Part shown: positions 62 to 20,656 of the stretch, in pieces
How the letters are laid out: every line of letters begins with the position of its first letter
Numbering within the stretch: position 1 is the stretch's first letter
From: Clostridia bacterium
GTDB taxonomy: Bacteria > Bacillota > DSM-521 > Neomoorellales > SLTJ01
Reading direction: 5' to 3'
Length of the DNA stretch: 35,440 nt
Assembly (NCBI GenBank): GCA_024653205.1
Contig: JANLFO010000022.1
Location: 1 to 35,440, forward strand
The notes under the pieces: model-generated
Told to the model about the DNA's origin: nothing
The model's input: the letters and a program-made list of their open reading frames with translations, nothing else
Database searches by the model: none
Position numbers and translations under genes: made by a program

Positions 62-1141
62 TCAGGAACCGGGGGCCTTGCCCACCAGCAGCCCGTTTAC
101 GCCCGACACCAGGTAATCCAGGACGCTGGGTAGCGTATCGCCCGCTTCTTCCCCCGGTCTCGCCTCACCACAAAGCAGGCGCCCCACAAAGCGCCGGGCC
201 TCCACTACCGCCACCTCCGACGGCAGGAGGCCCCAGGCAGCCTCATCCAGAAGGTGCAGAACCGCCGCCGCCAGGGCCACGAGCATGGGGTCTCGCGCCA
301 GTTCCCGCAAACGAGAAAGATAGGTCTCTTTGCCTTCGCTCCAGCCCATCTCGCGGGCCTGCTGCCAGAAAACCTCCGGCCCCACCCGGTAGCGATCCAG
401 CCGGGCCAGCAGATCGAGCTGCCGCGCCGGGCCCAGCCCCGTTTCCTTCTCCAGCGCCTCCTTGGTGGCGGCGATGACTGCCCGGCCGATCAGCTCGCCC
501 AGCTTGGAGTGTTGGCCGGCATCGGTAAACGTTCTGGGGCTGGTGGGATCGGCCACTACGGCAATCTGATCGGTTCCCGAGCCGGTGGCTACCCCGCAGG
601 AGTAGCGGCTCGGAGCCATCAGTTCCTGCAGGGCGGCGGCCTTGGCTTCGCTGGCGGTTACCACCGCGCGCACCAGGGCGTGGGGAGGCAGGTTCCCACG
701 GATGAACAGCAGGGTATTCACGGTGCCCACCGAAGTCCACTCCTCATCCACCTCGTAATAGCCCGCGGGATCGCCGGCCCGGCCGCCGTTCACATCCACC
801 CCGGCGGTGACGATGGCGGTAACCGCCAATTCCCGGTATTCCATGACCTGCAAGGCTGCATTCTCCATGCGCGCCGCGGTGAGAAGGCCTGCCGTCCGTT
901 CCGGCGCCACTCCTGCCCGTTGGGCGACCATCCGGAGGTAGTCGGCCACCCTTCCCCCTGCCACCTCCTCGATCTCTTCGTGGCCGGAAATGTGGCAGTT
1001 GAAGACCGCGTCAAGGTCCTCCCGGTAGCCTCCGTTGAGCCGGGCGGAAGAAAGCACGCGCCGGGGCCCGGGGAAACGCACCACCAGGGCCTTTTCCCCG
1101 ATCTGCGCCCTCTCCCCTCCCGGAAGTTGCCACTCCCTCAT
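62..1141 (-). CDS. cbiZ: Adenosylcobinamide amidohydrolase CbiZ
   Basis: CbiZ cleaves the nucleotide-loop amide of salvaged (pseudo)cobalamins to give adenosylcobyric acid, which allows imported corrinoids to be rebuilt with the native lower ligand. The 359-residue protein shows family blocks SSARLNGGY (about 31-39), TAGVDVNGGRAGDP (about 112-125), GTVNTLLFI (about 139-147) and ATGSGTDQI (about 185-193). The C-terminal ~130 residues are alpha-helical and less conserved. The ATG start follows directly on the TAG stop of the preceding small ORF. It lies in a btuF-btuC-(btuD)-cbiZ arrangement typical of salvage loci, so import and remodelling are probably co-expressed. It is probably the last gene of the transcript. 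Confidence 0.92.
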   Translation of the reverse strand: MREWQLPGGERAQIGEKALVVRFPGPRRVLSSARLNGGYREDLDAVFNCHISGHEEIEEVAGGRVADYLRMVAQRAGVAPERTAGLLTAARMENAALQVMEYRELAVTAIVTAGVDVNGGRAGDPAGYYEVDEEWTSVGTVNTLLFIRGNLPPHALVRAVVTASEAKAAALQELMAPSRYSCGVATGSGTDQIAVVADPTSPRTFTDAGQHSKLGELIGRAVIAATKEALEKETGLGPARQLDLLARLDRYRVGPEVFWQQAREMGWSEGKETYLSRLRELARDPMLVALAAAVLHLLDEAAWGLLPSEVAVVEARRFVGRLLCGEARPGEEAGDTLPSVLDYLVSGVNGLLVGKAPGS

Positions 1142-8451: not shown

Positions 8452-11400
8452 TCAGGTGCTTTCTTCAACGACCGCCTCCAGATCCAACACTGCCTCCGCA
8501 AAGGCGGCGCGCTCTTGGGCCGTGAGGCTGAAGTACCCTCGGCGCTCGGCTTCGGCCAGGCGCCGGGCCAGCTCCAAGGTGGCAAAGCGATTATTCTCAG
8601 CCAGCCGGCGGCGCACTCCCGGATCCAGGATTAGGCGGTGAAGCGCCTCACGGAACACCCATTCCCCCACCTGGCCGGTGGTGGCCGCCAGGCCCACCAG
8701 GTACTGCACCCGGTCGGCCACCTTCTGGCCGCCGTGAAAGGGATGGGCCAGCATACCCTCGAGCCAGCGGGGGTTGAACAGGCGGGCCCTCACTGCCCGG
8801 TCTACGGCCAGGCCCGCCTCGGCCACCTCCGGGAGTTCTTCGCTGGTGTCCACCACCCACTGCCGGGGTCTGGCTCCGCGGTGCCGGGCCACGGCCCCGG
8901 AAAGGCCGCCGAAGAACTCGTAGTAGTGGTCCAGATCGGCGAACTCGTACTCCGCGCTGTGCCTCACCTGGGAAACCACTTCCACGGTTGCGGCAAGGGC
9001 GTCAAAGAGCTTCCGGTTCTCCGCGATCCGGCCCCGGTAGTGGCAGTAGGCCAAGGATCTCTCGTAGGCTTCCACCAACTCCTCCTCGTCCTGCCAGGCT
9101 CCGCTTTCCACCAGGGCCCGCACCGCGGTAGCGTACTCCCCCTCGCGGGGGCCGAAGATCCGGGCCCGGCTGAGCGCCCCGTGCTCTGCCCGGGCCTTTT
9201 GGCTGTGCAGGCGCACGTAGTTCATTTCCTCCGGCTCCGGCGCCTCGGCCGCCAGCTCCACCGCCCGGTTGATCAGCTCGACCTGTGGACCCAGCAGATC
9301 CCGGAAGATGCCGCAGATGGTAACCAGCACGTCGATGCGCGGCCGTCCCAATTCTGTCAGGGGAACGAGTTCCAGGTCCTTGAACCAGGGGTTGCCCTTG
9401 CGCACCAGGCGCACCCCCAAGTAGGCCAGGATCTGAGCGATCGTCTCCCCGCCGGTGCTCAGGGTCTCAAACCCCCACAGCACCAGGCCCACACTCTCCG
9501 GATAGCGGCCGTGGGCGGCCCGGAAGCGCTCCAGCACCGCAGCTACGGTTTCCTCGCCCCGGCGCCGGGCGGTTACCGTCGGTATAAGCCGGGGATCGAA
9601 CTCGTACATGTTGCGCCCCACGGGAAAGACCTCCGGGGAGCGCAAGGGGTCCCCGCCCAGGTTGGGAAGAAGGTAGCGACCGGCGAGCGCGGTGAGCAGG
9701 CCTTCGCTTTCACGGGAGCGGCCGAGGTTTTCCCGCACCCGGGCCAGGTACCGGGCAGTATCCGGCGGCAGGGCCTCCTCTTCCCCGGCCAGCCAGCGCC
9801 GCACCGCCCATCCGGCCTCTTCCTCCAGCGTCCTTAGCCGCTCGGGACGGCCCAGGCACTCCTCGTAGTTCCACCCTCTCCGACCGGCCAGCACCCGGAG
9901 CAGCGAGGGCACTTCCCGGTCAAAGCGCACCAGGCCAACCAGGTACTCGGCCAGATCCTCACCTTCAAGCTGCCGGTCCAGCACGTGCAGCCCCCGGGGG
10001 ATGAGCCGGCGCTTCAGCCGGTACAGGTAGAGTTCCAGTTCCTCCGGTGTCCGGACGGGGAGGGAGAGGTCCTTCGCCCGCGCCGCCAGGCGCTCCTCGA
10101 GTTGGCGGCGCTCCTGCTCGGGCGCCCGGCGCCACTCGCCCAGCAGATCCTCCAGTTCCAGGTAGTCGCCGTAGAGGCCGGAAGGAACCAGGGGCGGTGA
10201 GGCGTGGGAGACGGTAACGGCGTAGCTCCTGCGCTTGGCCAGCGTGGCCTCGGAGGGATTGCCCACCCAGTAGTAATACACGTGGGGCAGATCGCCCACC
10301 AGGATATCCGGGAAACAGCGCCGCGATACCGGGCCTTCCCGCCCGGGGGTGAACTCCAGAGTACCGTGGGTTCCCCAGTGGACGAGAGCGTGCGCCCCGA
10401 ACTCTTTAGCCAGCCACCAGTAGAAGGCCAGGTACTGGTGGTGCGGAGGCAGGTCCCGGTCGTGGTAGAGCTTATCCGGGGTTTCGTGCACCCCTCGCGA
10501 GGGCTGCACGCCCAGGAAAATGTTGCCCAGCACCACCCCGGGCAGGAGCAGTCTGTCCTGCCGCACCATCACCGTGCCCGGCGGCTTCCCCCAGTGCTTC
10601 TCGACTTCCGCCCGTAGGTCGGCCGGCAGTTCCTGGTACCAGCTTTGGTAGACCTCGACGGGCACACAAAGCTCCGGCTCCGGAGCGGGCCACTCCGGCC
10701 CGTTCACCACCCCACGCGGGATCAGGAATTCGGCCAGATCACCTTCCGGCACTTCCACCCCATACCCGGCGGCAGCCAGTTTTTCAAGAAACACTCGCAA
10801 GCTTCCCAGGGCGTCAAGGTATCCGGCGTTTCCCAAGCGGGCCTCTCCCGGAGGATAGTCGTACAGGATCAGCGCCAGCCGCTTCTCCGCGTTGGGCAGC
10901 CGCCTCAGGGCCAGCCACCGGCGCCCCCGTCCACATAGCCGCTCTATCCCTTCCGGCAGAGCCTGCGCCTCCTTGCCCTCACCTTCCAGGTACCCCTTCC
11001 CGAGAGTCGTGGCCAGGCCGCCGACGTAGACCGGGTCAATGCCCCCGTCCAACTCGGGCAGCACCACCCCCAGGGTGGTCTCCAGGGGGCTAAGCCGCAT
11101 CCCCTGCCACCACTCCCCTGTCTCCGTGGTGTAGGACCGGAACCCGATCAGCACCGGAACGCCCAGCTCGGAGAGGAGCTGGTGCGTGGGCTCGGGAGGG
11201 CCGCCGTAAGGGCCGCCGTGCAGGCAGAAGTACTGGAGGTTGACCACCAGGTTCACCGCCGGTCGTCCGGCCTCGAAGAAAAGGGAGCGCAGCGCGGTAA
11301 GGTTGTGCTCCACGCGGGAGAACACGGGAAGGAGGTTGACCTCGCCCCGCAGGGCTTCAATCAGGGCCCGGACCACCGGCAAACATTCCGCCTGGTGCGC

Positions 11401-12093
11401 CCCGGCGTAGAAGAGGATGCCCACCGTGGGCTTATCCGCCTCCCACCCTACGGCCTCCTGAAAAGACTTACGGTCCGTAAAGCACCTGTCTTCCGGCCAC
11501 CACAGGCCGTAATCCGGCCTCTTGCGCGGCGGCTCTACCTTTACCCGGGCGCCGAAGTACTCGCGCAGCAGGAACAGGAGCAGGTGGCGGAGGTTCTCCC
11601 TTCCCCCTTCGGCGTAGTACTCGCACGCCACAAGCCAGTTGCGCATGTGCCGGAGCTTCCCCACCGGAAGCACGGTACCCAGCCTCCGCGTCATGTCCAT
11701 GAACTTGCGGGCCTTCAGGTATGTCTCCAGGTCGAAGCGTCCCTCGCGCCGGGGCAGGTCCGCGCCGGAAAAGTTTCCCAGGCGGGTTAGGGCAAGCAGA
11801 TCGCGGCTGGCGCCCACCAGCACCACTATCTGAGCCGAGCTTCGGGGCAGGAGCCGAACCAGGTAGTCGGTCAGTTCGGTCTGCCCCATGATGGCCACCA
11901 GGATCAGGTCGGCGGCGGAAACCGCGGCCTCTACCTCTTCCCGGCGGAGCCGGCCCCGCTCCCAGTCGGAGAGGCAGAGCTTCTGAACGGTAAGCAGGGG
12001 ACCGTATTGAGAATGAATGTCGGCCAGCGCCGCCGAGAGTTCCCCGGTGCTCTCGATGGTGCTGAGCAACAAGAACCTGACCGGCCTCTCCAC
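8452..12093 (-). CDS. cobN: Cobaltochelatase large subunit CobN
   Basis: CobN is the large porphyrin-binding subunit of the ATP-dependent class I chelatase, placing cobalt into the corrin precursor (or another tetrapyrrole). The protein has 1213 residues, normal for CobN/BchH, and family blocks such as HWGTHGTLEFTPGREG, YEFDPRLIPT and VLWGFETLSTGGETIAQIL. A longer reading frame runs up to 12180, but that extension crosses two terminator hairpins. The GTG at 12093, behind AAAGGGG, is therefore the likely start and gives the normal N-terminus VERPVRFLLLSTIES. Expression is controlled by the cobalamin riboswitch just upstream. The absence of other chlorophyll genes argues against a BchH role. 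Confidence 0.93.
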   Translation of the reverse strand: MERPVRFLLLSTIESTGELSAALADIHSQYGPLLTVQKLCLSDWERGRLRREEVEAAVSAADLILVAIMGQTELTDYLVRLLPRSSAQIVVLVGASRDLLALTRLGNFSGADLPRREGRFDLETYLKARKFMDMTRRLGTVLPVGKLRHMRNWLVACEYYAEGGRENLRHLLLFLLREYFGARVKVEPPRKRPDYGLWWPEDRCFTDRKSFQEAVGWEADKPTVGILFYAGAHQAECLPVVRALIEALRGEVNLLPVFSRVEHNLTALRSLFFEAGRPAVNLVVNLQYFCLHGGPYGGPPEPTHQLLSELGVPVLIGFRSYTTETGEWWQGMRLSPLETTLGVVLPELDGGIDPVYVGGLATTLGKGYLEGEGKEAQALPEGIERLCGRGRRWLALRRLPNAEKRLALILYDYPPGEARLGNAGYLDALGSLRVFLEKLAAAGYGVEVPEGDLAEFLIPRGVVNGPEWPAPEPELCVPVEVYQSWYQELPADLRAEVEKHWGKPPGTVMVRQDRLLLPGVVLGNIFLGVQPSRGVHETPDKLYHDRDLPPHHQYLAFYWWLAKEFGAHALVHWGTHGTLEFTPGREGPVSRRCFPDILVGDLPHVYYYWVGNPSEATLAKRRSYAVTVSHASPPLVPSGLYGDYLELEDLLGEWRRAPEQERRQLEERLAARAKDLSLPVRTPEELELYLYRLKRRLIPRGLHVLDRQLEGEDLAEYLVGLVRFDREVPSLLRVLAGRRGWNYEECLGRPERLRTLEEEAGWAVRRWLAGEEEALPPDTARYLARVRENLGRSRESEGLLTALAGRYLLPNLGGDPLRSPEVFPVGRNMYEFDPRLIPTVTARRRGEETVAAVLERFRAAHGRYPESVGLVLWGFETLSTGGETIAQILAYLGVRLVRKGNPWFKDLELVPLTELGRPRIDVLVTICGIFRDLLGPQVELINRAVELAAEAPEPEEMNYVRLHSQKARAEHGALSRARIFGPREGEYATAVRALVESGAWQDEEELVEAYERSLAYCHYRGRIAENRKLFDALAATVEVVSQVRHSAEYEFADLDHYYEFFGGLSGAVARHRGARPRQWVVDTSEELPEVAEAGLAVDRAVRARLFNPRWLEGMLAHPFHGGQKVADRVQYLVGLAATTGQVGEWVFREALHRLILDPGVRRRLAENNRFATLELARRLAEAERRGYFSLTAQERAAFAEAVLDLEAVVEEST

Positions 12094-12118
12094 CCTTACC
12101 CGCCCCTTTCCCAGAATC

Positions 12119-12141
12119 AAAAACCCGACCCCACGGTCGGG
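12119..12141 (-). terminator. Intrinsic terminator of the cobN cobalamin riboswitch
   Basis: On the minus strand a 7-base-pair stem CCCGACC/GGTCGGG with loop GTGG is followed at once by TTTTT. It sits between the riboswitch aptamer and the cobN GTG start, the usual place for a transcription-terminating expression platform. When cobalamin is bound, it should stop transcription before cobN. Confidence 0.88.
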
Positions 12142-12145
12142 AAAG

Positions 12146-12176
12146 AAAAAAGGACCCTTCCCATCCGCGTGGGAAG
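12146..12176 (-). terminator. Second hairpin with T-run in the cobN leader
   Basis: On the minus strand CTTCCCA/TGGGAAG forms a 7-base-pair stem (12157-12176), followed after GGTCC by six Ts (12146-12151). It lies between the aptamer and the stronger terminator. The five-base gap before the Ts makes it a weaker terminator; it could instead be part of the switching structure. Confidence 0.6.
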
Positions 12177-12189
12177 CCAACGCCTCCGC

Positions 12190-12345
12190 GGGCAGGCAGG
12201 TCTCCTGGCTCGGGTTCGTCGGGCGCTCTACGCCTTCCCGGGTTTCCCCAGTGGCCTGCGGTAAAGGCCCTCCCCCTCACAGTGGCGGGACCGCGCCGGA
12301 TTTGCACCGGCTTCCCTAACACCTGCCCCGGCAGGTCTTACCCAG
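12190..12345 (-). promoter_or_regulatory. Cobalamin riboswitch 1 (upstream of cobN)
   Basis: On the minus strand the region reads through the family hallmarks: AGGGAAGCCGGTGCAAATCC, then GCGGTCCCGCCACTGTGA (GCCACTG at 12280-12286), and the 3' B12 box AGCCAGGAGACCTGCC (about 12192-12209). Binding of adenosylcobalamin is expected to favour the terminators downstream. It lies between the cbiC stop and cobN inside the cluster, and I see no convincing promoter in front of it. It therefore probably acts on read-through from the cbi genes, as a second checkpoint. Confidence 0.96.
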
Positions 12346-12415: not shown

Positions 12416-13048
12416 TCAGTCAGCTTTCCCGACCGCCAGGCGGAGCAGGGCGTTTACCGCCGCGGCAGCCACGGTGCTGCCACCCCGGCTTCCACGGACG
12501 GTGAGGTAGGGGATACCGCTCTCCCGCAGTGCCTCCTTGGCCTCGGCCGCTCCCACAAAGCCCACCGGGGTTCCCACCACTGCGGCCGGCCTGGCCCGGC
12601 CCTCCTGCCAGAGTTGCAGGAGCCGGAACAGCGCGGTAGGAGCGTTGCCGATCGCCACCAGGCCGCCCTGCATCAAGGGTGCCAGATAATCCATGGCCGC
12701 CATGGCCCGGGTGAGGCCTTGAGCCCGCGCCCGGGCGACTACCTCCGCCCGGGCGATGGCGCAGTGCACCCGCCCACCCAACTGGCGTAAGCGCCGCCTA
12801 TCTATCCCTGCCGCCACCATCTTCACGTCCACCACCACGTTGGCCCCGGTCCGAAGGCCTGCCAGTGCCCGGGCCACAAAATCCGGATGACAGTCGAAGA
12901 CCTCTTTCAGTCCGAGATCCCCGGAAGCGTGAAGCATCCGGGCCAGCACCTGTTTTTCCTCCCGAGGGCGATCTTCTTCTTCCAGGGCTCTGGCCACCGT
13001 TGCCAGGCTCCGAGCCTCGATGGCCGTCGGTTCCGCCAGAAAGGTCAA
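12416..13048 (-). CDS. cbiC: Cobalt-precorrin-8 methylmutase CbiC
   Basis: CbiC moves the methyl group from C-11 to C-12, giving cobyrinic acid, the last ring-forming step before amidation. The 210-residue length is exact for the family. Visible blocks are the putative catalytic histidine in MLHASGD (about His40), VVVDVKMVAAGID, and the C-terminal GTPVGFVGAAEAKEAL followed by PYLTVRGSRGGSTVAAAAVNALL. The start is a TTG that overlaps the cbiX stop as TTGA, with GGGAGG upstream; a longer frame exists, but it would run back into cbiX. The gap of about 70 bases to riboswitch 1 holds nothing else I can name. Confidence 0.93.
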   Translation of the reverse strand: MTFLAEPTAIEARSLATVARALEEEDRPREEKQVLARMLHASGDLGLKEVFDCHPDFVARALAGLRTGANVVVDVKMVAAGIDRRRLRQLGGRVHCAIARAEVVARARAQGLTRAMAAMDYLAPLMQGGLVAIGNAPTALFRLLQLWQEGRARPAAVVGTPVGFVGAAEAKEALRESGIPYLTVRGSRGGSTVAAAAVNALLRLAVGKAD

Positions 13049-13416
13049 CCCTCGCCCACCTCCCGAATCCGGTCCAGAACTATCTCGGTGATGCGCGGGT
13101 CGCTTCCCAGGCTGGCCGTGCACCGCAGTGGCAAACCCGGGTACTCCTGGCGCAACTCCTCAAGCTGCTCAGGAATATCCTTCCGCACATGCACACCGTC
13201 ATAAAGAAACAGCGGTACTACCACCACCTCCTGCGCGCCCCGCCTGAGGGCGGCAGCTACCGCTTCGGCCAGGGTGGGCCGACCGTGCGCCAGATACCCC
13301 ACCTCTACCACCCTCTGAGGAAAACGGCGTTCCACCTGGGCGGCCAGCTCCCCTACTCCTCGGTTGGCCTCCTCCCGGCGGCTGCCGTGCCCCAGGAGCA
13401 CAATTCCTTGTCTCAG
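13045..13416 (-). CDS. cbiX: Short sirohydrochlorin cobaltochelatase CbiX
   Basis: This is a small class II chelatase that inserts cobalt into sirohydrochlorin without ATP, the entry step of the anaerobic pathway. It has the chelatase motif LLGHGSR and a second histidine in FLYDGVHVRKDIP, the pair that binds metal. At about 123 residues it is the short homodimeric (CbiX-S) form. The start is notable: a CTG at 13416 overlaps the cobK stop as CTGA, sits the right distance behind GGAGG, and yields the family-like N-terminus LRQGIVLLGHGSR. The alternative is a GTG at 13401, which would clip that strand. It shares its product role with CobN encoded downstream. Confidence 0.9.
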   Translation of the reverse strand: MRQGIVLLGHGSRREEANRGVGELAAQVERRFPQRVVEVGYLAHGRPTLAEAVAAALRRGAQEVVVVPLFLYDGVHVRKDIPEQLEELRQEYPGLPLRCTASLGSDPRITEIVLDRIREVGEG

Positions 13417-14180
13417 GGGCTTTCACCTCCGCTCAGCCGTACGCAGGCCTTTAGGATCGCGGCTACGTCCTCTCCTTCTTCTTCCCGTGGCCGACGGATT
13501 ACCACCGCCCGGATCCCCTCCGACAGCGCGGCGGCCAGCTTTTCCTCCAGCCCCCCCGGCCGACCGCTCTCCTTGGTAACCAGTACCTGCGCCCCAAAGT
13601 GCCGTAGCATCGCCCGGTTGAGTTCTACCGAGAACGGGCCTTGGGCAGCCACGATGTCCCTGGGACCGATCCCCAGGGCCAAACAGTGCTCCAGCGAGCG
13701 CGGATCGGGCAGGATGCGCACCACCAGCCGTTTTCCCTTCAAGGCCGGGTGGCCGAGTATCTCACCCAGAAGCCGGGTACCCACGGCCAGGAAGACCGTA
13801 CTGCCTGCGGCCGCCGCCTCCGCCGCCTCGGCGGCGTTTCCCGCCACGGTGACCAGCGGGTGCTCCGGCAGAGGACACGTGGGGCGGAGATAGCGGAATA
13901 GGGGCAGACCGTAGGCGCGGCACACCGAGCGGGCCAGTTCCCGGATCTTCACGGCAAAGGGGTGGGTAGCATCTACCACCGCCCGGGGGTTAAGCTCCTC
14001 CACCAGCCGGTGCAAGTCGGCCTCGCCCAGGGGGCCCACCCGCACCCGGGAGGCACCGGCGGCCCTTGCCAGAACGGCGCCGTACTCGGTCACCGCGGTA
14101 GCCGCTACCTCCAGCCCCCGGTCGGCGAGGGCGCGGATCACCTCCCGGGCCTCGGTGGTCCCGGCGAGTACCAGGATCAT
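13413..14180 (-). CDS. cbiJ: Cobalt-precorrin-6A reductase CobK/CbiJ
   Basis: This enzyme reduces cobalt-precorrin-6A to 6B with a nicotinamide cofactor. The 255-residue protein begins MILVLAGTTEAREVIRALA, the usual N-terminal strand and turn, and carries VVDATHPFAVKI, which holds conserved substrate-pocket residues. The C-terminal part has VTKESGRPGGLEEKLAAA, also family-typical. The start is the ATG overlapping the cbiH stop as ATGA; a longer frame lacks similarity. Codon use and spacing match the neighbouring cbi genes. Confidence 0.93.
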   Translation of the reverse strand: MILVLAGTTEAREVIRALADRGLEVAATAVTEYGAVLARAAGASRVRVGPLGEADLHRLVEELNPRAVVDATHPFAVKIRELARSVCRAYGLPLFRYLRPTCPLPEHPLVTVAGNAAEAAEAAAAGSTVFLAVGTRLLGEILGHPALKGKRLVVRILPDPRSLEHCLALGIGPRDIVAAQGPFSVELNRAMLRHFGAQVLVTKESGRPGGLEEKLAAALSEGIRAVVIRRPREEEGEDVAAILKACVRLSGGESP

Positions 14181-14902
14181 AGCCGGTACCCCCGGGGCGT
14201 GACCATACGTCCCCCCAGAACCCGGGTCTGGCGGCTGCCCACGATTACCGTGGTCGCCATATCGATTGGCAGGTTGATGAACCCCTCCAAATCGGAAACC
14301 CACCACCGTTCCCCGCAACGAGCCGCGTTCTGCACCACCCCTACCGGGGTCTGAGGCTGCCGGTACTCCAGAAGAATCTGCCGAGCGCGCACGAGCTGCT
14401 CCTGTCGGCCGTGACTACGGGGGTTGTACAGGGCCAGCACCAGATCGGCCTTCGCCGCCAGGCGCAGCCGCTTTTCGATCACCTCCCAGGGGGTTAGCCG
14501 ATCGCTCAGGCTGATCACGGCAAAGTCGTGCCCCAAGGGGGCGCCCAGAACGGCTGCCGCCGCCAGGGCGGCGGTCATGCCGGGCACAATCTCTACCGGT
14601 AGCTCGGGTCCCTCCCGGGCGGCGAGCAGCTCCAGCACCAGAGAGGCCAGACCGTACACCCCCGGATCCCCGCCGCACACCAGGGCCACCCGCCGACCGG
14701 CTTCTGCCCGGCGAATGGCTTCCCGGCAGCGGGCCACCTCCTCGGTCATACCGGTGGCCACTACTTCCCGACCGGCAAGATAAGGCCCCAGGAACCCCAG
14801 GTAGGTGCGGTAACCCACAATCACCTCGGCTTCTTCCAGGGCCTGGCGGGCCGCAGGTGTGAGGTGACGCTCCGAACCCGGGCCCACTCCCACTACCGCC
14901 AG
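14177..14902 (-). CDS. cbiH: Cobalt-precorrin-3 C17-methyltransferase CbiH
   Basis: CbiH methylates C-17 and contracts the ring in the anaerobic pathway, using S-adenosylmethionine. It shows the precorrin methylase pattern: VVGVGPGSERHLTPAA near the start, ALVCGGDPGVYGLAS, EIVPGMTAALAAAAVLGAPLGHDFAVISLSD (split blocks) and ALYNPRSHGR. About 241 residues is normal. The start is uncertain. The conserved region begins at LAVVGVGPG, whose leucine is a CTG at 14902, a few bases before the cbiG stop. In-frame GTG or TTG codons upstream lie 80 or more bases inside cbiG. Either a CTG is used or the protein carries an unusual N-terminal extension. Confidence 0.9.
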   Translation of the reverse strand: MAVVGVGPGSERHLTPAARQALEEAEVIVGYRTYLGFLGPYLAGREVVATGMTEEVARCREAIRRAEAGRRVALVCGGDPGVYGLASLVLELLAAREGPELPVEIVPGMTAALAAAAVLGAPLGHDFAVISLSDRLTPWEVIEKRLRLAAKADLVLALYNPRSHGRQEQLVRARQILLEYRQPQTPVGVVQNAARCGERWWVSDLEGFINLPIDMATTVIVGSRQTRVLGGRMVTPRGYRL

Positions 14903-15963
14903 CCGGCCCGGGCCACGGCCACCGTCACTCCCCGGTAGGCGGTCTTGGGCCAGATCAGGCTTCCGCCCCCGGCTCCCAGCCTGGCACACGGCTCGCAAAC
15001 CCCTCCCACTCCTATTCTGGCCTGCACCCGCGCGGAACGGGCCAACTGGCCATCCTCACTCAGCATCCGGGCTACCTCTCTGCGGCCAAACACCAGTAGC
15101 GGGCACCGGAGCCGTGCCACGGCAGACACCAGCCCCGGCTCCTCCGCCTTAAGGTCCACCGTGGCCAGAGCCAGCAGGCTGCGGCGGCTGACGCCTGCGA
15201 ACCTGAGTGCACGGCCCACAGCGGCCAGCACGGTCCGGGCGGAAACCCCGCGACGACAACCCACGCCCACCACTACCGTGCGCGGTCGCCAAAACATCCA
15301 GTTGGGACCGAAATCGGGGAGGCGCCGGTCGGTCACCAGCACTCCTCCCTCCCACCCCTCCGGCCCCTCAAACTCCTCCAGCGGCCGCACCCGGCCCCGG
15401 CCCAGACGGTCTTCCAAGACGGATACCAGGGAGGGCTCGGCCCAGAAACCTACCCGGGCACCATCTGCCAGCCGGGCCGCCACCCGTGCCAGGCGCCGTT
15501 CCGGCGCCGGCACCAGCCCCAGGTCTCGCGCCACCACGTCCAGCGCCGGCAGGCCCCCAAGGTCGCCGGCCGTGGTGATGACCGCCTGACCGCCGATCAG
15601 GCGGGCGACCTCCCGCGCCAGATCGTTTGCACCGCCCAAATGCCCCGAAAGCAAACTGATTACATATCGTCCGTCCTCACCAACCACTACCACCGCGGGA
15701 TCGCAACGCTTGTCCCGCAAGTGCGGAGCAAGGCACCGGACGGCAATGCCGGTGGCCATGACCAACACCAACGCTTGCCGGGTGGTGAAGAGCTCGCCCA
15801 GAAAGGCGGTCAAGGCGCCTTTGCCCGCGCGCTTACCTGGGTTTGAGTGAGGCCACTCGGACCAAGGAAGATACACCTGCGCCTTTTTCCCAAGCCCGGC
15901 CCCGATCCTTTCCGCCAGTTCTCCTCCCCGTTTAGTCAAGGCCACTACCGCTATTTCGGACAT
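14893..15963 (-). CDS. cbiG: Cobalt-precorrin-5A hydrolase CbiG
   Basis: CbiG opens the delta-lactone of cobalt-precorrin-5A and releases acetaldehyde, a step specific to the anaerobic route. The 356-residue protein has both halves: an N-terminal domain with MATGIAVRCLAPHLRDKRCDP (split) and SLLSGHLGGANDLA, and a C-terminal CbiG_C/CobE-like domain starting near VVVGVGCRRGVSA. The start at 15963 has GGAGG upstream and lies 32 bases inside the end of cbiF. It is one of the best markers in the window for the oxygen-independent pathway. Confidence 0.93.
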   Translation of the reverse strand: MSEIAVVALTKRGGELAERIGAGLGKKAQVYLPWSEWPHSNPGKRAGKGALTAFLGELFTTRQALVLVMATGIAVRCLAPHLRDKRCDPAVVVVGEDGRYVISLLSGHLGGANDLAREVARLIGGQAVITTAGDLGGLPALDVVARDLGLVPAPERRLARVAARLADGARVGFWAEPSLVSVLEDRLGRGRVRPLEEFEGPEGWEGGVLVTDRRLPDFGPNWMFWRPRTVVVGVGCRRGVSARTVLAAVGRALRFAGVSRRSLLALATVDLKAEEPGLVSAVARLRCPLLVFGRREVARMLSEDGQLARSARVQARIGVGGVCEPCARLGAGGGSLIWPKTAYRGVTVAVARAGWR

Positions 15964-16711
15964 TGCTTCTCCTCCGATAACCGTGAGTAAAACCGGGATG
16001 GTATAGTAACGAACGTCCGCCTTGGCGCCGCAGAAACGGCCCCACCAGCAAGAGGGCACTACGGTCCAGGCCCGCCGCTCGGGCCCCGGCCACCACTTCC
16101 TCCAACTCTCCGCTCAGAACCCGCTGTTGCGGCCATGAGGCCCGGTACACCAGCGCCGCCGGGACCTCTTGCCCGTAGCCTCGGTGCAAGGCCTCGGCCG
16201 CCGTCTCCAGCCGGCTGGCACTCAGGAAAAGGCAGAGGCTGGCGCGGTGGTTGGCCAAAGCCTCCAACTCCTCTCGCGCCGGAACCGGTGTGCGTCCGGG
16301 TAGCCGGGTGAGGATTACCGTCTGGCTCACTCCCGGCTGAGTCAGCTCCGCTCCAAGCGCGGCCGCGGCGGCGGTAAAGGAGCTTACCCCGGGGACAATT
16401 TCGTAGTCCACCCCCCGCTTCTCCAGGGCCAGAATCTGCTCCTGCAGGGCCCCGTAAAGGGTGGGATCCCCGCTGTGCAGGCGCACTACCATTTTCCCGG
16501 CACTCGCTTCCCGCACCATCAGCTCTACTATCTCCTCCAGGGTCATGCCGGCGCTGTCGTAGCAGGCCGCCCGGGGAGCGTAGGTCAGAACGGCCGGGTT
16601 CACCAGAGATCCGGCATAAACCACAACCTCCGCCTGCTTCAGCAACCGCATTCCCCGCACGGTAATCAGTTCCGGGTCTCCGGGGCCCGCGCCTACAAAG
16701 TAAACCTTCAC
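15932..16711 (-). CDS. cbiF: Cobalt-precorrin-4 C11-methyltransferase CbiF
   Basis: CbiF adds a methyl group at C-11 of the contracting ring. The 259-residue protein follows the class III methylase plan: YFVGAGPGDPELITVRG at the N-terminus, VVYAGSLVNP, VRLHSGDPTLYGALQEQ and EIVPGVSSFTAAAA. The GTG start overlaps the cbiL stop as GTGA. The last ~30 residues, rich in arginine, extend beyond the conserved fold and overlap cbiG. Confidence 0.94.
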   Translation of the reverse strand: MKVYFVGAGPGDPELITVRGMRLLKQAEVVVYAGSLVNPAVLTYAPRAACYDSAGMTLEEIVELMVREASAGKMVVRLHSGDPTLYGALQEQILALEKRGVDYEIVPGVSSFTAAAAALGAELTQPGVSQTVILTRLPGRTPVPAREELEALANHRASLCLFLSASRLETAAEALHRGYGQEVPAALVYRASWPQQRVLSGELEEVVAGARAAGLDRSALLLVGPFLRRQGGRSLLYHPGFTHGYRRRSNVRNSGSGLD

Positions 16712-17424
16712 CGCCGTGTCTCTCCTTTGACGATGATTAGCGACAGGTAGTCCGGCTCTACGGCCGCCTCAGCCCCTTTCAGGTCCCGGACCAGCCTTTC
16801 CTCCGACCAGCCGCAGCGGCTGGCCAGCACCGCGTCTTCCAGCCTTCCTTCCTCCTCCAGAACCCGCAAGATCTCCGCATAGCGCCGGTGCACCTTCATG
16901 AGCACCAGATTGGGAAAGGCCCGTAAGAGGCGCCGCAATTCCTCGCCATCCTCGGCCGAGGGTAGTATCGCCAGCGGCTCCGTACCCTGGGCCAGAGAAA
17001 GGCCCAACCGGGCGGCCGCAGCGCAAAAAGAGGGAACGCCAGGCACGGTTTCCACCTCCAGGTCCGGGGCCGCCCGCTGCAGCCGTGGCAACAGGTACCC
17101 GTAGGTACTGTAAAGACCGGCATCCCCCAGAGTCAGGAAGGCCACGTCCAATCCCCGGCCCAGCCGTTCCAGCAACTCGCCCGTGGCCCGGTTCCAGGCC
17201 GCCTCCAGTTCCGCTTCGGTCCGGAGCATGGGCAACAGCAGCTTCACGATCTCCTGCTTCTCGGACAGCCACGGCCGCGCCGCCTTAAGGGCCAGGCTTT
17301 CCTCGCCCGGTCGGGAGATCGGGACCGCCACCACCGGTACCGAGGCCAGCACTTGGCGTCCCCGCACGGTGATGAGCTCCGGATCCCCCGGACCTACTCC
17401 CAGGCCGAAGAGCTTACCCGCCAA
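16708..17424 (-). CDS. cbiL: Cobalt-precorrin-2 C20-methyltransferase CbiL
   Basis: CbiL methylates C-20 of cobalt-factor II or precorrin-2, the first committed step after cobalt insertion. It has LFGLGVGPGDPELITVRG at the start, VPISRPGEESLAL, LTLGDAGLYSTYGYL and TVPGVPSFCAAAARLGLSL. The 238-residue length fits. The likely start is a TTG at 17424, 11 bases inside cbiT, behind AGGGCGAGG; no ATG lies near the conserved beginning. Confidence 0.92.
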   Translation of the reverse strand: MAGKLFGLGVGPGDPELITVRGRQVLASVPVVAVPISRPGEESLALKAARPWLSEKQEIVKLLLPMLRTEAELEAAWNRATGELLERLGRGLDVAFLTLGDAGLYSTYGYLLPRLQRAAPDLEVETVPGVPSFCAAAARLGLSLAQGTEPLAILPSAEDGEELRRLLRAFPNLVLMKVHRRYAEILRVLEEEGRLEDAVLASRCGWSEERLVRDLKGAEAAVEPDYLSLIIVKGETRR

Positions 17425-18028
17425 GGTCCTCGCCCTTTCTGGCCGCACGCACGAGGTACACCGGGTTCTGCGCCTTCCACGCCCGCGAGCCTCCCAGGGG
17501 AGCGAGACGCGCCACATTCAGACACACGGCTTCCACTTCCCAGCCGGGCTTTCGGTCAAAAAAAGCCATCAGCGTTGCCATAGTCTCCCAGGTAACGGCA
17601 CTGGCCACCAAAATGCCTTCCCGCCGCAACCCTCCGGCGCAGAGGCTCAGGATCTCCTCCAAACGTCCGCCGCTGCCGCCCACCAGTACCCGGTCTGGAG
17701 CCGGCAGGCCCGCCAGGGCCTCGGGAGCCTCTCCCTCTACCACGCGCAGGTTATCCGTTCCGAACCGAGCGGCGTTGGCCCGTACCAGCGAGGCCGCCCG
17801 TGGATCCCGCTCTACGGCCCAAACCGGGCCGGGAGCCACGAGCCGTGCCGCCTCTACGCTCACCGAACCGGTACCCGCGCCCACGTCCCAGACTACCTGG
17901 CCGGGCGCCAGCCGGGTAAGGGCCAGCCATACCACCCGCACCTCCAATCGGGTCACGGGAACCTCGCCAAGCAGGAATCGATCCTCCGGAATACCCGGAG
18001 TCAGGTAGGGCCAGCATACTTCAGGCAT
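17414..18028 (-). CDS. cbiT: Cobalt-precorrin C15-methyltransferase (decarboxylating) CbiT
   Basis: CbiT methylates C-15 and decarboxylates the C-12 acetate side chain. It corresponds to the C-terminal half of aerobic CobL. The 204-residue protein has the Rossmann-type SAM motif VWDVGAGTGSVSVEAA, the N-terminal block TPGIPEDRFLLGEVPVTRLEVR and the acidic VERDP. The ATG start overlaps the cbiE stop by eight bases. CbiE and CbiT are separate here, as usual in Firmicutes. Confidence 0.93.
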   Translation of the reverse strand: MPEVCWPYLTPGIPEDRFLLGEVPVTRLEVRVVWLALTRLAPGQVVWDVGAGTGSVSVEAARLVAPGPVWAVERDPRAASLVRANAARFGTDNLRVVEGEAPEALAGLPAPDRVLVGGSGGRLEEILSLCAGGLRREGILVASAVTWETMATLMAFFDRKPGWEVEAVCLNVARLAPLGGSRAWKAQNPVYLVRAARKGEDLGG

Positions 18029-18671
18029 GACCGAGCACCACCACCGCAGCCGACGGGAAGTCGTTTTTCGCCGCCAGGGTCTCAAGATCGGCTTCCAGAC
18101 ACCGCTCTTCCGGACGGCCCAAATCTGCTCCTACCCATACCCGGCCCTTTACCCCCTGGCGCAGGAGGTAACGGGCCAGTTCCGCCGGGGTCATCCGGCC
18201 GCCGGTAAGCACTACCAGCTTGCGCCCCGCCGGTTCCCGCAGGAGGGGGAGGTGCGGTTCTAGCTCCTCCCAGCTCCGGCCGTGGAGGCTGACAAATACC
18301 GCATCGTGCCAGCAGGAGGCCAGGCGGGCAAACGCCACCTGCACCGAGCTTATGCCCGGGACTACCTCCAACCTCTGGTCCGGAAACTCGCGCCGCAGCC
18401 AGTTCAGGAGGCTGTAAAACCCTGGGTCCCCCGAGACCAGCACCGCCACCGCCCGGTCCAGCCGCAAGCGGAGCCATTGGGCCAAACGAGAGAGGTTGGC
18501 ATCCAGCCGGTACACCTCTTTTCCCGCCAGCCGGAAAAGCGCCAGAGCACCGGGAGGACCTGCCACCGCCTCCGCCGCCTCTACCGCCTCCACCGCCGCC
18601 GGGGTGAGGTATTCCCGCCTGCCGGGCCCGGTACCTACCACCCTCCAGACCGCCTTGGTTTGTGTTTCCAA
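18021..18671 (-). CDS. cbiE: Cobalt-precorrin-7 C5-methyltransferase CbiE
   Basis: CbiE methylates C-5 of cobalt-precorrin-7 and corresponds to the N-terminal half of CobL. It has VVGTGPGRREYLTPAAVEAV at the N-terminus, VLVSGDPGFYSLLNWL and VVPGISSVQVAFARL, all standard for this methylase group. The 216-residue protein starts at a TTG four bases after the cobU-cbiD stop, with GAGGGGG upstream. The next gene, cbiT, overlaps it by eight bases. Confidence 0.93.
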   Translation of the reverse strand: METQTKAVWRVVGTGPGRREYLTPAAVEAVEAAEAVAGPPGALALFRLAGKEVYRLDANLSRLAQWLRLRLDRAVAVLVSGDPGFYSLLNWLRREFPDQRLEVVPGISSVQVAFARLASCWHDAVFVSLHGRSWEELEPHLPLLREPAGRKLVVLTGGRMTPAELARYLLRQGVKGRVWVGADLGRPEERCLEADLETLAAKNDFPSAAVVVLGHA

Positions 18672-18675
18672 ACCG

Positions 18676-20340
18676 TTACCCCCTCAGTTCCTGCATCAGG
18701 GCTACGGCCTCTCGGTCACGGCCCAAGATTCTTCCCTGGCGGTCCAGCAATACCGTACCCACTTCCAGTTTTCCCCGCACCAGAGATCGAGCCTGCTCGC
18801 TGGCCCGTTCGGCCAGCACCGACCACACCCGGCTCATGCCCTCGGCCTCCAGCACCGTCTGGGCCTCCTCCATGGTGGCCACGGAAAGCAGGCGCCGCAC
18901 CGTTTCCCGGGAGGCACCTTCCGCCGCCGCCCAGGCGCCGATGATTTCCCGGCGGGCGTCCGCCGCCCGGCTGTGGGTGTAGAAGCTGCCGCCGGCCAAC
19001 TTGACCAGTTTGCCGGCGTGCCCCCAGAGAAGCACCCGGCGCACCGATCTCTTGGCGCAGGTTTCCAAGAGTTCGCCCAAGAAATTTCCGGTTTCCACTA
19101 CCACCGCCTCGGGAAGCCCGTGCTGCCCGGCGCTCTGCCGCCCTTTGGCTCCGGGAACCAGTACCAGGGTGTCGAACCCTTGGGCTACAGATACCTCTAC
19201 CTGCAGTCTCAAGGCGGTAAGCATGGCCTCCCGAGACATGGGCCGCACGCGCCCGGTGGTTCCCAGAACCGAAAGACCGCCCACGATTCCCAGGCGGGGA
19301 TTCATGGTCCGCCGGGCCAGTTTCTCTCCTTGGGGAATGGATAGAGTAATCTTCACCCCGGCGCCCGGCGGCAGCACCTCCTCCACCGAGTTTAGAATCA
19401 TCTTCCGGGGTACGGGGTTGATGGCCGGCTCACCCACCGGGACAGGCAGGCCCGGTCTGGTCACCCGACCGATGCCCGCCCCCGCTTCCAGCACCACCCC
19501 GGCTGTCACCTGCGGCTCGGCCACCGCCACCACCTCGGCGCCGTGGGTAACGTCGGGATCGTCGCCCGCGTCCTTTACCACCACCGCCCGGGCCCGGCCC
19601 TCCTCCCGATACACCCGCACCGGCAGCCGAACACGACTTCCGTCCGGAAGGCCGACTTCCTCCTCCGGCACTTCCCGGCCCGAGAAGATGGCCCGCGTTG
19701 CGGCCTTGGCCGCCACGGCAGCGCAGGTGCCGGTGGTAAAGCCCCGGCGGAGGGGCGGCCCACCGGCTCGGGACTTCAGTTCCAGGGGCAGCCCGCACAC
19801 CACCAGGTACACTTCCCGAGCCACGAGGGCCAGGCGCTGGTTTGCCCAGCCCAGCCACTGGCGGTAAGCGCGGCCCAGAGGGAAAACCGGTTCCGTTCCG
19901 CACCCCACTTCGGTACTCACCACGATGACCTCCGCCCGGGCTCTAGAAGTGACCCGCACCAGATTTTCGATGGCCCCCGCCATTCGCTCTGCCCCTTGAA
20001 GGTGAAGGGATTCCGAGGTCAGCTCCGGCGGAGAGGCAGCGTAGGCTTCGAGCAGATTGCCCATGTACATTCCCAGGCCATCGATCAGCAACACCCGGTC
20101 AGGGCCATCTCGATCTTCTATCGCCCGGGCGAGGTGCAGGGGCTCCTCCACCGTTTCCCACTCCTGAAGTGGGCCCTGACGCTGGCGCCCAGTCGCTCTC
20201 CGCATTTCTCCGTCTCCGGCCGCGGCGGCGACTATATGAATCACCCGTCTGCCACGGGCAGCAGCCAGGTTCTCGGCAAAACGTCTCTTGCCGCTGCCCG
20301 CTCCTCCGGTTACCAGCACCAGGCCTCCGGGCACCGCCAC
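18676..20340 (-). CDS. cbiD: CobU-like domain fused to CbiD (C1-methyltransferase)
   Basis: This 554-residue chain joins two cobalamin enzymes. Residues ~5-190 resemble CobU/CobP, the adenosylcobinamide kinase/guanylyltransferase. They keep VLVTGGAGSGK (8-18), TEVGCGTEPVFP, ANQRLA and VYLVVCG. However, the P-loop Ser/Thr is Arg (GKR), and the place of the guanylylated histidine region reads GRQRQG with no histidine. Residues ~196-554 are a complete CbiD, starting RRGFTTGTCAAVAAKAA, which methylates C-1 of cobalt-precorrin-5B. The GTG at 20340 behind GGAGG is chosen because the longer frame runs through the riboswitch terminator. It is first in the cbi operon. The CbiD part is likely functional; the CobU part may not be. 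Confidence 0.92.
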   Translation of the reverse strand: MAVPGGLVLVTGGAGSGKRRFAENLAAARGRRVIHIVAAAAGDGEMRRATGRQRQGPLQEWETVEEPLHLARAIEDRDGPDRVLLIDGLGMYMGNLLEAYAASPPELTSESLHLQGAERMAGAIENLVRVTSRARAEVIVVSTEVGCGTEPVFPLGRAYRQWLGWANQRLALVAREVYLVVCGLPLELKSRAGGPPLRRGFTTGTCAAVAAKAATRAIFSGREVPEEEVGLPDGSRVRLPVRVYREEGRARAVVVKDAGDDPDVTHGAEVVAVAEPQVTAGVVLEAGAGIGRVTRPGLPVPVGEPAINPVPRKMILNSVEEVLPPGAGVKITLSIPQGEKLARRTMNPRLGIVGGLSVLGTTGRVRPMSREAMLTALRLQVEVSVAQGFDTLVLVPGAKGRQSAGQHGLPEAVVVETGNFLGELLETCAKRSVRRVLLWGHAGKLVKLAGGSFYTHSRAADARREIIGAWAAAEGASRETVRRLLSVATMEEAQTVLEAEGMSRVWSVLAERASEQARSLVRGKLEVGTVLLDRQGRILGRDREAVALMQELRG

Positions 20341-20352
20341 TGATCCTCCAGT

Positions 20353-20392: not shown

Positions 20393-20452
20393 TGACACAT
20401 CCGTACTACGTACTACGGCCCGTATCCCTAACCGCGAGGACCATGAGGCCTA

Positions 20453-20627: not shown

Positions 20628-20656
20628 ATTATAACTGCTTAGACCCTGGCCATCAA
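20628..20656 (-). promoter_or_regulatory. Sigma-A-type promoter for the cobalamin operon
   Basis: On the minus strand TTGATG (20651-20656) and a perfect TATAAT (20628-20633) are 17 bases apart. The predicted transcript would begin near 20621, a few bases before the start of cobalamin riboswitch 2. Confidence 0.85.

Follow-up and report, generated by a model that had tools for sequence, protein, structure and literature searches.

A CobU-CbiD fusion protein with a degenerate CobU domain in the anaerobic corrin operon of a Clostridia bacterium

The only CbiD match found in the genome of a Clostridia bacterium (GenBank assembly GCA_024653205.1) forms the C-terminal part of a protein whose N-terminal part is a CobU domain lacking key active-site residues. 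The gene lies in the window analysed here, a stretch of 35,440 nucleotides of contig JANLFO010000022.1. CobU/CobP is the bifunctional adenosylcobinamide kinase/adenosylcobinamide-phosphate guanylyltransferase. In the fusion, its counterpart probably persists as a pseudoenzyme domain, retained as a folded module in front of CbiD and necessarily translated along with it; to this reading we assign a probability of roughly 0.58. The protein would then be a small, naturally occurring example of catalysis being lost from an enzyme domain that had been duplicated and fused, with selection apparently still acting on its fold. It can be compared with two reference states, namely the intact paralogue encoded by this genome and, in a relative, a fusion of both domains with an intact CobU. 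The case also carries a warning for annotation, as family-based calls return CobU and CbiD, yet the CobU part is not to be counted as a working enzyme.

The fused frame and the active site of its CobU domain

The preliminary description of this DNA had proposed that one frame unites a CobU-like domain with a full CbiD. This was borne out, as a single uninterrupted frame of 554 codons runs on the minus strand from position 20340 to 18676 and both family profiles were matched over their full length (Table 1). The Pfam profile for CobU (PF02283) was matched with 133 bits over positions 1-168 of 168, that for CbiD (PF01888) with 313.5 bits from residue 197 of the fusion on, and the NCBIfam profile for CbiD (TIGR00312) with 412.9 bits against a cut-off of 200. 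The GTG start codon follows a ribosome-binding-like site, whereas an alternative in-frame ATG at 20400 has no GGAGG-like site. Since no in-frame ATG, GTG or TTG is present across residues 182-208, the junction offers CbiD no separate start codon, and normal-length CbiD therefore requires translation of the CobU part. Compared with known CbiD proteins (PF01888, TIGR00312; PDB 1sr8), the domain is likewise complete, scores twice the NCBIfam cut-off and is set in a cbi operon, whereas it differs by the 190-residue CobU domain in front and by the missing start codon. As no other CbiD was found in the genome, the fused protein must supply it if the operon works, and the CbiD part probably retains cobalt-precorrin-5B C1-methyltransferase activity.

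Table 1. Features of the fusion gene and of the corrin operon within the window
Feature	Position	Strand	Basis or remark
Sigma-70-type promoter-like site TTGATG-17-TATAAT, just upstream of riboswitch	20628..20656	(-)	consensus match only
Cobalamin riboswitch aptamer RF00174	20442..20618	(-)	114.6 bits
Ribosome-binding-like GGAGG, ahead of GTG 20340	20345..20349	(-)	sequence
cobU-cbiD fusion gene	18676..20340	(-)	start GTG 20340; stop codon 18678-18676
Degenerate CobU domain, residues 8-188	19777..20319	(-)	PF02283 match; alignment; predicted fold
Arg19 codon AGA replacing invariant P-loop Ser13 (AGC in intact copy C8)	20284..20286	(-)	alignment
Gln53 codon CAG replacing guanylylated His46 (CAC in intact copy C8)	20182..20184	(-)	alignment
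Linker RAGGPP, about 6 residues, from CobU end (LELKS) to CbiD start (LRRGFTTGTC)	19753..19770	(-)	
Complete CbiD domain	18676..19752	(-)	PF01888 full length; TIGR00312 1-346/346
cbiE-type tetrapyrrole methylase, next after fusion	18021..18671	(-)	PF00590; CbiE inferred from order
cbiT-type methyltransferase	17414..18085	(-)	generic methyltransferase match; CbiT inferred from order
cbiL-type tetrapyrrole methylase	16708..17517	(-)	PF00590; type inferred from order
cbiF-type tetrapyrrole methylase	15932..16711	(-)	PF00590; type inferred from order
cbiG	14893..16059	(-)	PF11760/PF11761/PF01890
cbiH-type tetrapyrrole methylase	14177..14998	(-)	PF00590; type inferred from order
cbiJ	13413..14318	(-)	PF02571
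cbiC	12416..13123	(-)	PF02570

The N-terminal part resembles CobU/CobP (PF02283; PDB 1c9k, 1cbu, 8yk8, 9vio) in its full-length domain match and its predicted fold. It differs in its fusion to CbiD, in the absence of Ser13, His46 and other conserved residues (numbered throughout as in Salmonella CobU), and in scoring 137.2 bits with the NCBIfam CobU equivalog NF004469, which is below the cut-off of 161. When the fused domain was aligned to Salmonella CobU (1c9k), its P-loop read GAGSGKRR in place of GARSGKSR and its histidine region TGRQRQGPL in place of IQHHKDGRP. Thomas et al. (2000), a paper cited in PMC8749415, names His-46 in its title as the guanylylation site of CobU. The full alignment comprised 56 CobU sequences. 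Three are the copies of this genome, among them the fused domain, and one belongs to a Moorella-group fusion; the other 52 served for comparison and were drawn from the taxonomic order, from gut clostridia, from Salmonella and from a phylum sample in which strong matches are over-represented. In all 52 comparison proteins Ser13 and His46 were invariant, and within the alignment both were missing only from the fused domain and from a further copy of the same genome (C2). The motifs that the preliminary description gave for CobU (Ser/Thr after GK, the histidine in HHKDGRP) and their mapping were thus correct, and so was the proposed loss of both catalytic marks: neither a Ser/Thr nor a His occupies the catalytic positions of the fused domain.

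The losses extend beyond these two positions. In the 52 comparison sequences, 44 columns reach a conservation of 85% or more; the fused domain keeps 34 of them, compared to 43 in the intact paralogue (C8), 25 in C2 and all 44 in the Moorella-group fusion. Nine of its ten changed columns fall within the first 51 residues, surrounding the active site, and comprise Ser13, His46 and seven further conserved residues. Up to the His46 region 9 of 21 conserved columns are lost, after it only 1 of 23 (Fisher p=0.003); with all split points permitted, the clustering remained significant (permutation p=0.02). Because the seven further changes affect the same region and occur within one open frame, a sequencing or frame error was rejected as the source of the two catalytic changes. 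A CobU fold was predicted for the domain (mean pLDDT 82, pTM 0.82; six sequences), with a TM score of 0.7-0.8 between the predicted model and solved CobU. The first 24 structure matches were all solved CobU chains, and the segment bearing the His46 position was predicted less confidently (blocks of 60-61). With nine residues of the active-site region gone and an intact CobU encoded on another contig, the proposal that the domain is no longer a classical CobU is well supported at the level of sequence.

Paralogues, gene order and other fusions

Three CobU matches were identified in the genome (98.8% complete), located on contig C8, in the fusion and on contig C2. The C8 protein answers the earlier suggestion to look for an intact second cobU: it scores 196.8 bits, carries both GARSGKS and EQHRRRRP, and is 57% identical to the fused domain. 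Its gene is followed by cbiP-like and cbiA-like genes, both named by reading the sequences rather than by a family search. The late CobU step is therefore covered by this copy, and a genome devoid of CobU function was rejected. The third CobU (C2:49372-49881; L003 1399-2013 (+); 76.3 bits) is more decayed, with a P-loop reading GSGRH and His46 absent, though its frame is still open; it precedes a gene that reads as cbiB-like, again named without a family search. A relative in the same family (G001) has an intact cobU at the corresponding place, ahead of cbiB and cobS.

In the tree, the C8 protein and the fused domain were recovered as sisters (support 100/99, and 94/99 in a smaller set) with branch lengths of 0.42 and 0.83, respectively, indicating that the duplicate arose within the lineage. 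Across the taxonomic order, relatives commonly carry cobU immediately ahead of cbiD, the pair usually being preceded by a cobalamin riboswitch. The fusion retains this ancestral riboswitch-cobU-cbiD arrangement. A second CobU-CbiD protein, a single frame of 576 aa, was found in a Moorella-group MAG (G013, 58% complete; L127 3310-5037 (-)). It shares with the window's fusion the domain order, the single frame and a cobalamin riboswitch upstream, but has a longer linker and an intact CobU active site. As its CobU nests among Moorella-group CobUs in the tree, fusion of the two genes apparently occurred twice and independently. The search for proteins of the same domain order, which the preliminary description had called for, produced this one relative; among the matches listed for a 398-genome phylum sample (177 genomes with CbiD; frames of at least 497 aa), the window's protein was the only CobU-CbiD fusion, and none was present in 80 GTDB loci. 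A widespread CobU-CbiD family was thus not found in these sets. In a literature search covering mostly titles and the first lines of abstracts, no paper describing either a fusion of CobU with CbiD or a pseudoenzyme derived from CobU was recognised.

Other CbiD fusions of the phylum likewise join CbiD in frame, however with different partners, which are an ABC ATPase (L131, L140) and a tetrapyrrole methylase (L134). In a further composite frame (G285, L146 67-2052 (+)), an intact CobU is combined with part of an ABC ATPase and with an AIR-synthase-like domain. It had been suggested that the CobU domain may dock CbiD. As cobU adjoins cbiD across the order and one relative has fused them with CobU intact, a special docking explanation is not needed. 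The conserved adjacency and the other CbiD fusions also weaken the notion that the pairing as such implies a special interaction. The earlier interpretation as a whole is thus partly supported, through the loss of classical CobU function.

Selection on the CobU domain and its possible role

Between the fused and the C8 copy, dN was 0.33 and dS ranged from 1.3 (NG86) to 3.0 (ML), so that synonymous sites are near saturation and omega values are rough. A codon model for six sequences treated the domain in two partitions, one ending with the His46 region and one following it, at a boundary set after the changed columns had been seen. After the His46 region the ratio of fused to intact omega was 1.00, while before it the ratio was about 43, with the intact copy very strongly conserved there (omega 0.002); the difference between partitions was significant (2dL=10.9, p=0.001). 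Neutrality was rejected for the later part (p=8e-12 with and p=6e-4 without a clock) and also for the earlier part (p=1e-7 and 0.002, respectively), indicating that the active-site part is relaxed rather than free. The omega values are averages into which any period preceding the loss of activity also enters, and the fusion was sampled from one species. Within these bounds, and with dS near saturation, the part after His46 appears as constrained as the intact copy. The CobU domain therefore seems to have evolved mostly under purifying selection that was loosened at the active site, which favours a retained structural role over simple junk.

As the apparently inactive part still looks selected for its fold, the most likely role of the domain is that of a structural front end of CbiD rather than of an enzyme. 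The gene would descend from the riboswitch-cobU-cbiD pair ancestral to this taxonomic order. After duplication, the copy now located on C8 ahead of the cbiP-like and cbiA-like genes would perform the enzymatic job, while in the copy next to cbiD, which became fused to it in frame, the P-loop serine, the guanylylated histidine and neighbouring residues of the active site were lost. What remained would be a folded pseudoenzyme domain that has to be translated for CbiD to be made and that may serve the cobalt-precorrin-5B C1-methyltransferase in folding, solubility and possibly oligomerisation.

The main rival is that the domain is a neutral relic, a redundant CobU in decay, kept only as the carrier of the cbiD start codon, its apparent constraint predating inactivation. 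The redundant intact copy on C8, the likewise decaying but open C2 frame, the fused branch of about twice its sister's length and the lack of a separate CbiD start all agree with this view. However, the equal omega of fused and intact copies after the His46 region, the rejection of neutrality and the concentration of losses in the active-site part speak against it, and we regard it as unlikely, though it stands ahead of the other alternatives. Somewhat less probable still is the idea raised in the preliminary description, by which the pocket would continue to bind a corrinoid or nucleotide in the absence of catalysis and tune CbiD. Such a pseudoenzyme, taken over by CbiD for regulation or assembly, might tie early corrin-ring methylation to late corrinoids or nucleotides. 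The predicted fold appears intact, and Lys12 of the P-loop is retained along with D36, E38, E80 (as Asp), N88, R148, R151 and N158. However, Ser13, which as in P-loop enzymes generally would contribute to Mg-nucleotide binding, is replaced by Arg. Furthermore, CobU is a late, GDP-adding enzyme whose substrate arises many steps after that of the C1 methyltransferase CbiD (PMC7242693). We regard regulation as a doubtful alternative to the structural front end. Partial activity, e.g., as a cobinamide kinase without guanylyl transfer, would fit the retained P-loop lysine but is very improbable given an Arg in place of the P-loop Ser found in 52 of 52 comparison proteins and the loss of seven conserved residues of the region besides His46.

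The CbiD of the fusion is part of an anaerobic corrin operon, with the riboswitch upstream and the tetrapyrrole methylases, cbiG, cbiJ and cbiC downstream (Table 1). Ahead of the riboswitch, one promoter-like consensus was found where 0.1 were expected. A second cobalamin riboswitch (12178-12341 (-)) precedes a gene for a cobN/bchH-like large chelatase subunit (8452-12180 (-)), and ChlI/ChlD-like subunits follow this gene, in a genome that relies on the anaerobic cbi genes. Elsewhere in the window, a corrinoid salvage set (62-1141 (-)) comprises a CbiZ-type adenosylcobinamide amidohydrolase adjoining a BtuC-like permease gene.
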